Below are positions 3,957 through 16,454 of a DNA stretch of 64,000 bases, piece after piece; positions within the stretch are counted from its first letter, which is position 1, and each line of letters opens with the position of its first letter. Under the pieces are notes generated by a model. That model did no database searches. It worked only from the letters and a program-made list of their open reading frames with translations, and was not told the DNA's origin. Position numbers and translations under genes: made by a program. Source of the stretch: a virus; the IMG/VR virus record IMGVR_UViG_3300032116_014939, positions 1 through 64,000 of that record; one strand, written 5' to 3'.

Positions 3957-3980
3957 ATTTTCCCAATATGTCAAAGAACC

Positions 3981-4182: not shown

Positions 4183-4213
4183 CAAAAGTACTACTATTTT
4201 TGAGTTATGTCAA
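4183..4213 (-). promoter_or_regulatory. Bacteroidota-type promoter
   Basis: TTG at 4211-4213, 20 nt, TACTTTTG at 4183-4190 on the minus strand; the -33 region reads TTGACA. Drives the 37-aa unit. Confidence 0.75.
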
Positions 4214-10973: not shown

Positions 10974-11444
10974 TTATTTAATAATTCTTGTTGTGTAAAA
11001 CTTACCACTATCGTCAGTAAGAGTAATAACATAAGTTCCATTACTTAATGTTTCAGAATCAAACTGAATGTTTTTAGTGAAATATTTTTCTTGATAAACA
11101 CATCTTCCATCAATAGACATAATTCTTAGTGTTCCACTATTTGATGGTGTGTTAATATTAACAATACCTGACACAGGGTTTGGCCAAACTTTAACATTGT
11201 TAGTTAATTCAGTTACATCAACGGTGCAAGGTCCTTCTGTGAAATTTACTATGCCGTGGTAATAGATAGCTTCGCATGAATTTCCATAAGTGATTCCATC
11301 ACATCCGCAAACAGGAGCCCAAATTGCCGGACACATGACATTTAAGTCAATGAGTGTGGAGTCAACACATGTCAATACTTGTGAAGAAGCACTCAATCCA
11401 ATGAATGCGAAAAGGGTTAAAAGAAATAATTTAATTTTTTTCAT
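10974..11444 (-). CDS. Secreted Kazal-type protease inhibitor with T9SS type-A sorting domain
   Basis: 156 aa. A signal peptide (MKKIKLFLLTLFAFIGLSAS) is followed by a Kazal domain at about 25-75: CPAIWAPVCGCDGITYGN, then SCEA and GPC, the classical Kazal cysteine and Tyr pattern. Residues about 85-156 are a Por-secretion tail: VWPNPVSGIVNI, MSIDGRCVY, LSNGTYVITL and a basic RIIK end. Kazal domains block serine proteases by a canonical loop, and the tail directs T9SS export and surface anchoring. A host-exported, phage-encoded inhibitor is the direct reading; the target protease is unknown. Confidence 0.88.
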   Translation of the reverse strand: MKKIKLFLLTLFAFIGLSASSQVLTCVDSTLIDLNVMCPAIWAPVCGCDGITYGNSCEAIYYHGIVNFTEGPCTVDVTELTNNVKVWPNPVSGIVNINTPSNSGTLRIMSIDGRCVYQEKYFTKNIQFDSETLSNGTYVITLTDDSGKFYTTRIIK

Positions 11445-13119: not shown

Positions 13120-13127
13120 TATAAATA
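13120..13127 (-). promoter_or_regulatory. TATTTATA box, 14 nt before the start codon
   Basis: Element before the 74-aa gene. It directly abuts the ncRNA terminator at 13127-13150. Confidence 0.48.
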
Positions 13128-13150
13128 AAAAAACCCGTCAATTGACAGGT
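13127..13150 (-). terminator. Strong rho-independent terminator of the 1-kb ncRNA
   Basis: A 7-bp stem ACCTGTC/GACGGGT with AATT loop, then seven T on the minus strand. No ORF ends here, so it closes a non-coding transcript. Confidence 0.8.
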
Positions 13151-13979
13151 CAGATTAAAAAAGCCTGAGATTACAGCTTATGTTGAGAATCTTTTGAAGT
13201 ATTATTGTTTCACTTCGTATCCACTTCCTTTTGAGAAGTACTTCTCAGTCACGGTCTTTTAGGTGTACCACTCCTTGAGGTCTAAGTTACTCTCTTCTTA
13301 CTCAACTCTTTCCGAGGTTGCCACCCCAGTTCGTCCTTGCGGGATTAAAGGTTTTTCGTAAAACTACAGTCAGACTTGGGGTCTTTCTGTGCAATGAACG
13401 GCTCATTACTATGTAGTGACCTTTCACCTAAACCTGATGGACACTTTTCCTTAGTTATTTTGTAATAATGTTAGGTTTGTGTAGTAGATGTGTCAGAGTA
13501 GTGGTCCAACATAAGCTCTGTCTCCTTTTGAGCGACAGAATACTAAACTACTCCGTGAAGTGTCCCCACCTCCATATTTCAAGATTACTTCATAAAGAGA
13601 CCTTGGTAGGTCTTCCTTAGGGATAGTAGCGACACCACTCGTTCTCCATCTTACCTTTCGGTTTTAAGTCCTCTATCATATTGGGACCCGCAATAGTGTA
13701 ACTGGATGGTCACATTTCTTACAGAGTTCCTATGGGTTATTCTTATTGTTCTTCCGAACTCAACTTGAGAATCTACTTTCCCAAGTCACCCTCCCATTTT
13801 CCCTACGAAGTTATCCTCGGTACTAAAGGTTTGGTGATATCCCACTTGTGTACTTGAGTTCTCTACCCCTCACGGGGTTTCGAACCGCAGTCTCCTCAAC
13901 ACAGGGGAGACCACTTTATCCTACTTTCGTAGTTTATTTAAGGACCATACACGGCCCATTATCGTTTATCAGATTAAAT

Positions 13980-14013
13980 GTCTCATAATCAACCCGAAGG
14001 TCTCATAATCAAC
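13980..14013 (-). repeat. 14-bp direct repeat near the ncRNA 5' end
   Basis: GTCTCATAATCAAC occurs at 13980-13993 and again at 14000-14013, a 20-bp period. It lies within the 5' part of the ncRNA. Confidence 0.7.
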
Positions 14014-14072
14014 TACTGAATGGATAATCTTTTTGTTTCAAAGAACGTATCGGACATTTCCGATTTGTTTTA

Positions 14073-14103
14073 CAAACTTACGACTTTTTTTTCAATCTGT
14101 CAA
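14073..14103 (-). promoter_or_regulatory. Bacteroidota-type promoter P1 of the ncRNA
   Basis: TTG at 14101-14103, 20 nt, TAAGTTTG at 14073-14080 (minus strand). A start about 6 nt downstream places the perfect 6-bp hairpin 14049-14064 at the RNA 5' end. Confidence 0.75.
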
Positions 14104-14174
14104 GTAATTTGTGAACTTTTTTTTTGATTTAACTACCGAGTATCTTTCATTCCCTATAAGTGTTAAATCTTTTA

Positions 14175-14205
14175 CAAACTTACAGCAAATATTCCGTAGT
14201 GTCAA
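14175..14205 (-). promoter_or_regulatory. Bacteroidota-type promoter P2 of the ncRNA
   Basis: TTG at 14203-14205, 20 nt, TAAGTTTG at 14175-14182. Same -7 box as P1, 102 bp upstream, giving a tandem arrangement. Confidence 0.75.
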
Positions 14206-15003: not shown

Positions 15004-16407
15004 TTACTTACTTTCTTCAATCTTCTGTTGTAAAACATTAACAAATCTATTCTGTAACATCTTCAAAAACTTGATATAAGGTGAGTCTTCTTTTTCAGAC
15101 TCGTACTTGTACTTACCTTGTGGTGGTCTCTTACTTCTTCCAATATAATTTAATCCTGATATATTTGTAATACACTTGTGTCCACCTGAATTGGCTTGGA
15201 TAACTTCCCATACAGGAACTGAAACACTATCTAACACACTCCATTCTTCTTCAGTCAGTTCAGTTGATTTCTTTTCCATCAAAGATTTAATATCCATAAG
15301 TTCCTCAACACCATCTTTTTTATCCAAGTATTTGTCTCCGTATATTGCAGCAAAATCTTTAAAGGTAAATCCAACTGACTCTTCTTTTGCAGCAGTTTCA
15401 GAAACCCATTTAATTGTTGATAGTGGAACTTGTTTTTCTTTTAATTGTGATTCCCAATGTCCCAATACTTCTTGAGCAATTTCTCCCAAGTTAACACCTT
15501 TAAGTTCTCTTTCTTTTTTGAAAGGGTTACATGACGCTTGTAATAAACCAAGTGGCCAAGCAATAACAAGGAAGTCTGCTTCAGGGTTGTTTCTAAATGG
15601 GGTGTATCTATCATATGAGCCAGGTTTCATCATACTTCCACCACCATATTGAACAATAATATTATCTTTAACCTGAACATTCTTATGTCCTTTCATTGTC
15701 TGAACATAATCTTCTTTATTCTTTTCTAATGAAGATATGTCAGCATACCTATTTGTCTTCATTAATTCCTTAATCTTATTGAAGATTGAGAGGAGTGAAG
15801 GTTTACAATCTAACACTAATGTCTCTAAAAACCCTGGTTTACTTTTGAATGCTAATAATAATTTGTTTGTAACCAAACCTAATAACATTCTATTTTCTTT
15901 AGCACTCTTTTCTTTTGATGTCCCATAAACATAATTCATCACCATTTCAGGTGTGATGTTTTTGGAAGCGTAATCAGCACTATCAACCATAGATATTGTC
16001 GCAACATCTTCAGGTGTAAAAATTTCAGAAGCCGGAACAATCTGTGATAGAGTTTCAACATTTGAACGAGCTCCTCTGAACTGAGTTGACTTAGTTTCGT
16101 CAGCTCCGGCTTGTCTATCGTGGTGGTCGGTATGAACCACAAACATTGGTTTTCCGTGAGCAAAGTCTACAAGGACTGGCATAATTTCACCTTCAGCATC
16201 TGCTTTCTTAACCGCAAATTCCTTATCTCCGTATTGGATTACTTCAACATCAACAACTTTGATTCCGTTGTCTTCTAAATACTTTTTCATCGCTAATGCA
16301 GTTGCAACACCGTCTAAATCTTGGTGGAAGTATATCTTCGCTTTTTTGTATCTATCAGAAAGTTCTCTTATGTTTCTGATACCACCTTCGGAAATTATCT
16401 TTTTCAT
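15004..16407 (-). CDS. DHH-family phosphoesterase with ISE leader
   Basis: 467 aa from ATG 16407. The leader MKKIISEGG precedes the DHH domain: IYFHQDLDGVATALAMKKYL (metal-binding Asp residues, about 25-45), then VVHTDHHDRQ (DHH signature, about 107) and MVDSADY. DHH enzymes hydrolyse phosphodiester bonds in short oligonucleotides or cyclic dinucleotides (NrnA, RecJ, GdpP types). The C-terminal 250 residues have no clear DHHA1 motif. A TATTTATT box is 4 nt upstream. Confidence 0.82.
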   Translation of the reverse strand: MKKIISEGGIRNIRELSDRYKKAKIYFHQDLDGVATALAMKKYLEDNGIKVVDVEVIQYGDKEFAVKKADAEGEIMPVLVDFAHGKPMFVVHTDHHDRQAGADETKSTQFRGARSNVETLSQIVPASEIFTPEDVATISMVDSADYASKNITPEMVMNYVYGTSKEKSAKENRMLLGLVTNKLLLAFKSKPGFLETLVLDCKPSLLSIFNKIKELMKTNRYADISSLEKNKEDYVQTMKGHKNVQVKDNIIVQYGGGSMMKPGSYDRYTPFRNNPEADFLVIAWPLGLLQASCNPFKKERELKGVNLGEIAQEVLGHWESQLKEKQVPLSTIKWVSETAAKEESVGFTFKDFAAIYGDKYLDKKDGVEELMDIKSLMEKKSTELTEEEWSVLDSVSVPVWEVIQANSGGHKCITNISGLNYIGRSKRPPQGKYKYESEKEDSPYIKFLKMLQNRFVNVLQQKIEESK

Positions 16408-16411
16408 TAAT

Positions 16412-16419
16412 AATAAATA
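16412..16419 (-). promoter_or_regulatory. TATTTATT box, 4 nt before the start codon
   Basis: Before the DHH gene. Too close for a normal leader, so the role is uncertain. Confidence 0.35.
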
Positions 16420-16426
16420 TTGTAAC

Positions 16427-16454
16427 AAAAAAAAAGTTCATCATTACGATGAAC
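16427..16454 (-). terminator. Rho-independent terminator
   Basis: The stem GTTCATC/GATGAAC is followed by nine T on the minus strand. Ends the Dps-like gene. Confidence 0.8.

Follow-up and report, generated by a model that had tools for sequence, protein, structure and literature searches.

A complete GOLLD RNA gene in a large phage follows a leader with a predicted boxA of the rRNA-operon type

In the window, the 64,000-nucleotide stretch of viral DNA analysed here, the segment from 13127 to 14205 contains no open reading frame of more than 50 aa lying wholly inside it, in agreement with the initial annotation, which had noted about 1.1 kb without a gene-length ORF and had proposed a large structured RNA, either a member of a GOLLD or ROOL type or a new class. 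Few known structured RNAs are as large as GOLLD, 14 copies of which assemble into a hollow cage. An Infernal search returns a full match to the Rfam GOLLD model RF02032 on the minus strand at 13162–13555 (model positions 1–416; 313.2 bits, against a gathering score of 150), with E-values of 8.6e-89, for the whole window, and 1.5e-90 in two runs. ROOL is likewise a large phage RNA that forms cages and often lies near tRNAs, but the Rfam ROOL model gives no match in the window. The RNA belongs, with near certainty, to the already known GOLLD; the first of the proposed assignments stands, and both ROOL and a new class fall away. The phage record of 242,064 bases contains one GOLLD.

The minus strand from 14205 to 13127 is a single transcription unit, comprising a complete GOLLD RNA gene of about 900–940 nt with leader and terminator (Table 1). 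The unit closes with a terminator-like stem read from 13151 to 13132 and followed by a T run, which bears out the terminator annotated at 13127.

Table 1. Features of the GOLLD unit, of the phage tRNA array and of related loci
Feature	Coordinates	Strand	Remark
Upstream promoter, Bacteroidota type, TTG-N20-TAAGTTTG	14175..14205	-	copies recur in relatives
Downstream promoter, Bacteroidota type, TTG-N20-TAAGTTTG	14073..14103	-	aligned promoter here in relatives
Leader hairpin ATCGGA-AATG-TCCGAT	14049..14064	-	position of boxB in rRNA leaders
boxA-like element GTTCTTTGAAA, predicted NusB/S10 site	14036..14046	-	after leader hairpin
GOLLD 5′ domain	13557..13975	-	nhmmer profile, at least 121 full-length loci; 20 covarying consensus pairs
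Hairpin-loop strand TGTATG	13946..13951	-	covaries long-range with GTACAC 13848-13853
Partner strand GTACAC	13848..13853	-	pairs with loop TGTATG 13946-13951, 5′ domain
GOLLD 3′ domain	13162..13555	-	full RF02032 match; 23 covarying consensus pairs
Variable linker of 3′ domain, approximate bounds	13452..13490	-	gapped in Rfam alignment and in relatives' alignment
GG, 3′ edge of variable linker	13449..13450	-	covaries with loop CC 13378-13379
Loop CC	13378..13379	-	partner of GG 13449-13450
GTCCA strand	13438..13442	-	pseudoknot with TGGAC 13504-13508
Intrinsic terminator with T run	13132..13151	-	stem and T run
Second boxA GTTCTTTGACATATTGG	3963..3979	-	23 nt before first tRNA of phage tRNA array
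CAT-anticodon tRNA after GOLLD			L014, L011, L025, L041, L005, L083, L109, L079, L006, L115

Relatives were collected with a DNA pattern of the 3′ domain, which yielded 49 IMG/VR contigs, with blastn, which yielded the 635-kb huge phage LR745206.1, and with a pattern of the 5′ domain, which yielded a further large set of contigs taken from among the matches listed. Conservation extends upstream of the Rfam match, and most relatives align across the 5′ part into the promoters. In nhmmer profile searches of the IMG/VR relatives, matches to the 5′ and 3′ parts lie back to back in at least 121 full-length loci, and we therefore assign 13557–13975 to the GOLLD 5′ domain, which is absent from the Rfam model and is the counterpart of the cap half in the cryo-EM cage. 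The profile of this domain gives a strong match in a huge phage (L165, E 3e-68) and a weak match in an Acinetobacter locus (L164, E 0.0014). A 147-nt consensus query found no GOLLD on plasmids. Three loci from a genome scan, L053 and L054 of Peregrinibacteria and L055 of Plectonema, have no GOLLD match and were therefore discarded as chance pattern hits.

Folding of the minus-strand RNA beats that of 20 out of 20 dinucleotide shuffles (z = −3.0), and covariation supports both halves, consistent with the large structured RNA that had been proposed. Specifically, the at least 121 full-length loci were reduced to 74 divergent representatives, which were aligned and jointly folded, and every column pair was tested with an APC-corrected G statistic against a null of 30 tree-simulated alignments in which each column kept its own number of changes; the test follows the principle of R-scape in our own implementation and is not the R-scape program. 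Fifty-two column pairs covary at E ≤ 0.05, among which 43 belong to the consensus fold, divided between the two domains as given in Table 1, while eight of the remaining nine are long-range and canonical in 99–100% of sequences. In the 5′ domain, the loop strand TGTATG and its partner GTACAC switch together among several compensated sequence pairs. The contact between the linker edge and the loop CC occurs as GC/GC in 39, GG/CC in 28, GA/TC in 3 and TC/GA in 3 of the 74 sequences, with one mismatch, and is a candidate for the intermolecular bridge B7, to which it was mapped by position rather than through the env-38 sequence. In the GOLLD cage, cryo-EM places B7, an L20-J13/15 kissing contact, between chains (PMC12286853).

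Some structural details of the initial annotation require revision. Two GNRA hairpins had been described: the GAAA hairpin (CTAC-GAAA-GTAG, at about 13931–13920) is kept in relatives, while CCCC-GTGA-GGGG exists but sits in a short insertion confined to the window's closest relatives. A tRNA T-arm-like module had been placed at 13866–13911; neither ARAGORN nor Infernal calls a tRNA there, and the alignment resolves the module into a plain hairpin, the form found in relatives, plus a lineage-specific insertion, so that a tRNA or tRNA-like domain within the RNA is ruled out. The 8-bp helix drawn as closing a multibranch set (13439–13446/13558–13565) is unsupported in that form and agrees with the alignment only in part: it has no two-sided compensatory pair among the common states, its last two pairs form in 47 and 53 of the 74 sequences, and positions 13439 and 13438, at its 3′ strand, covary with 13507–13508 instead.

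The window RNA shares with GOLLD as known (RF02032; env-38) the full 3′ domain match, a conserved 5′ domain, a variable linker, a phage origin, covarying stems and long-range contacts, and many of its relatives have tRNA genes nearby; the window copy differs in that its linker contains no tRNA. The env-38 GOLLD is a 14-mer cage by cryo-EM (PMC12286853), and by analogy with this solved structure the window RNA probably assembles into a homo-oligomeric cage as well.

The promoter pattern TTG-N20-TAAGTTTG occurs at exactly two sites in the 64 kb, against 0.09 expected, and 0 of 100 shuffles contain two; the two copies lie 102 bp apart on the minus strand, as had been reported. Transcription from the downstream copy would start near 14067. 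Upstream sequence was long enough for this comparison in 69 representatives. Of these, 60 carry one or more Bacteroidota-type promoters ahead of the RNA, 47 two or more and 20 three or more; on the opposite strand, 3 of the 69 carry one and none carries two. Elsewhere on the minus strand of the window, two phage proteins carry T9SS sorting domains. The one encoded at 129–728 has a domain of type B (CHU_C); the one at 10974–11444 pairs a domain of type A with a Kazal-type protease inhibitor domain, in the manner of a protein destined for export through the type IX secretion system of the host. A further minus-strand gene, 15004–16428, encodes a 474-aa protein with no more than a weak DHH/RecJ-like match. 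The promoter type together with the two sorting-domain proteins points to a Bacteroidota host for this phage, which is at least 242 kb long, in line with the initial annotation.

Just after the expected start lies the perfect 6-bp hairpin that the initial annotation had noticed, at 14064–14049. A stem of at least 5 bp is found at this place in 46 of 67 relatives, compared with 9% in shuffles, and in most relatives it ends 2–4 nt before the box described below. Compensated variants (TCGGA/TCCGA, TCAGGA/TCCTGA and CTTGGT/ACCAAG) indicate that the stem is kept while its sequence changes. The element that follows, GTTCTTTGAAA, matches in sequence the boxA of rRNA operons, a NusB/S10 site for antitermination. 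This rRNA-type boxA leader had been missed and is the new part here.

In 67 of 73 representatives the core motif GTTCTTTRA stands on the sense strand in the 130 nt that precede the 5′ domain. Chance would place it in about 0.7% of such stretches, at a background of 0.062 per kb on each strand, and the opposite strand of these stretches contains none. The box is missing in five representatives with upstream sequence and in one more by the strict pattern. The enrichment is not circular, because the loci were gathered by patterns in the RNA body and not in the leader. The distance from promoter to box clusters at 26–28 nt, and between box and 5′ domain lie some 31 to 103 nt that align poorly. The extended motif GTTCTTTRAA has five sites in the whole 242-kb record, which does not exceed the number for a control pattern; the motif by itself is thus unspecific, and what matters is where it lies.

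The gamma-proteobacterial boxA consensus is GYTCTTTAANA, which is bound by NusB-S10 (PMC5725501), and the window leader fits the pattern GYTCTTTRAnA. In rRNA leaders the order of elements is promoter P2, boxB, boxA and boxC, and boxA is reported to be necessary and sufficient for rrn antitermination complexes (PMC10250234). Elsewhere boxA can promote termination, for example at suhB, and the published boxA survey left non-coding RNAs out of consideration (PMC5725501). For the host phylum, we compared nine Bacteroidota rRNA operons lying on plasmids, a small sample since several come from one genus; most of their leaders have tandem TTG-N19-TAnnTTTG promoters, a hairpin and then GTTCTTTGA. The latter is present in six of the nine, with GTTCTTTTGA in Flammeovirga, and GTTCTTT(T)GA lies about 120–165 nt before 16S in seven; the other two, from Flavobacterium limnophilum and Chryseobacterium fluminis, have a different sequence and do not show GTTCTTT. 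The window leader thus shares with the rRNA operon leader the tandem promoters, the hairpin and a GTTCTTTGA-type box ahead of a long untranslated structured RNA, and differs in driving a phage RNA, for which Nus recruitment is predicted. It would share with the lambda nut site, a boxA-boxB element used with N protein, the phage use of boxA for antitermination, but in lambda boxA precedes boxB, whereas in the window the hairpin precedes boxA, as in rrn. The long RNA of ICP1 was considered as a boxA-bearing parallel and rejected, since no boxA was seen in the leader sequence read. The papers searched, most subscription papers being outside the search, contain neither a description of this GOLLD leader of tandem Bacteroidota promoters, hairpin and boxA nor a link between GOLLD and boxA or antitermination.

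The second boxA of the window phage, upstream of its tRNA array, follows a terminator-like stem and lies downstream of a Bacteroidota-type promoter at 4183–4213. A box precedes the first tRNA of an array in 8 of 68 cases among the representatives, with none on the reverse strand, which is too few for a boxA at the head of tRNA arrays to be the rule. According to Aragorn, 29 of the 74 representatives have tRNAs within 600 nt of GOLLD, all of them encoded on the same strand as GOLLD. In ten representatives (Table 1) a CAT-anticodon tRNA starts 11–22 nt after the GOLLD 3′ end and is probably cotranscribed with it; the window unit is closed by its own terminator instead of continuing into a downstream tRNA. 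Seven contigs of related or GOLLD-bearing phages (L014, L065, L074, L081, L129, L147 and L167) encode a tmRNA no more than a few kb from GOLLD.

In DSS3_MAL1, an alphaproteobacterial phage whose host, going by the phage name, is Ruegeria pomeroyi DSS-3, the tRNAs, GOLLD and tmRNA are all on one strand, and the tmRNA starts right after GOLLD. Its GOLLD match (2070–2533 of L167) contains a tRNA-Arg at 2130–2203, which fits the description of GOLLD linkers with a tRNA inside. The array of this phage starts with the hairpin GGAACCTCGGTTCC, followed by ACG and GCTCTTTGACAAT; the last is close in sequence to the rRNA boxA of its host class, as represented by the leaders of Rhodovulum (TGCTCTTTGACATTG) and Acuticoccus (GTTCTTTGACAAGTG). 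The leader stretches read for the GOLLDs of Acinetobacter phage Herod, Streptococcus phage Javan636 and L003 contain no boxA, and on account of the Herod and Javan636 stretches the leader boxA is not universal in GOLLD.

The sequence provides good support for a GOLLD unit laid out in the manner of an rRNA operon. The best reading of this arrangement, and one that we consider likely, is that the GOLLD cage RNA is transcribed through rRNA-type antitermination. Host RNA polymerase would start at either of the two tandem promoters, and the nascent RNA would expose the short hairpin and then boxA. By analogy with rRNA leaders, boxA would recruit NusB-S10 and other Nus factors, and polymerase carrying them is expected to run fast, to resist Rho and to assist RNA folding, which would allow the long untranslated GOLLD RNA to be completed and well folded into its 5′ cap domain and 3′ ring domain. 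We infer with fair confidence that boxA aids both synthesis and folding of GOLLD by recruiting Nus factors.

The same leader could be read in other ways. The element GTTCTTTGAAA forms part of the transcript and shows high conservation among GOLLDs of Bacteroidota phages, as would be expected if it were part of the folded GOLLD and conserved for structure instead of Nus-factor recruitment; the variable and poorly alignable stretch that separates it from the 5′ domain, and the presence of the same element before a GOLLD-free tRNA array and before host 16S rRNA genes, make such a role unlikely. An incidental match, or a relic of the capture of a host rRNA or tRNA operon, in front of an ordinary GOLLD with ordinary strong promoters would accord with the GOLLDs that have no box, but is very improbable given that the box is kept in 67 of the 73 divergent representatives while the surrounding leader diverges, and that the hairpin and the spacing are kept with it.

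A boxA-bearing RNA of high abundance might also act in trans, as a decoy that titrates NusB/S10 away from host rRNA operons, so that ribosome synthesis in the host is shut down or redirected. Such a decoy would rely on the boxA shared with the host rRNA operons, and pull-downs in which ribosomes bind GOLLD are cited in PMC12286853. The boxA lies, however, at the extreme 5′ end, where promoter, hairpin and spacing are those of a functional leader, and its occurrence before the phage's own tRNA array suggests use in cis, which leaves the decoy with little probability. Antitermination in cis remains the reading that we prefer. On balance, phages of at least two host groups appear to drive cage-forming GOLLD, either by itself or jointly with tRNAs and tmRNA, from units that resemble rRNA operons in their promoters, hairpin and host-type boxA, with host antitermination and folding machinery making the giant RNA.

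The rRNA-type boxA leader offers a concrete and testable answer to how phages may complete and fold a long untranslated RNA, and suggests how such an RNA gets made in bulk. It would extend the use of boxA to a stable RNA other than rRNA and tie GOLLD to the ribosome-making machinery of the host. The most natural guess for the role of the cage is the storing or handling of tRNAs or ribosomal parts, and dependence on boxA and NusB would provide a simple handle for studying it.
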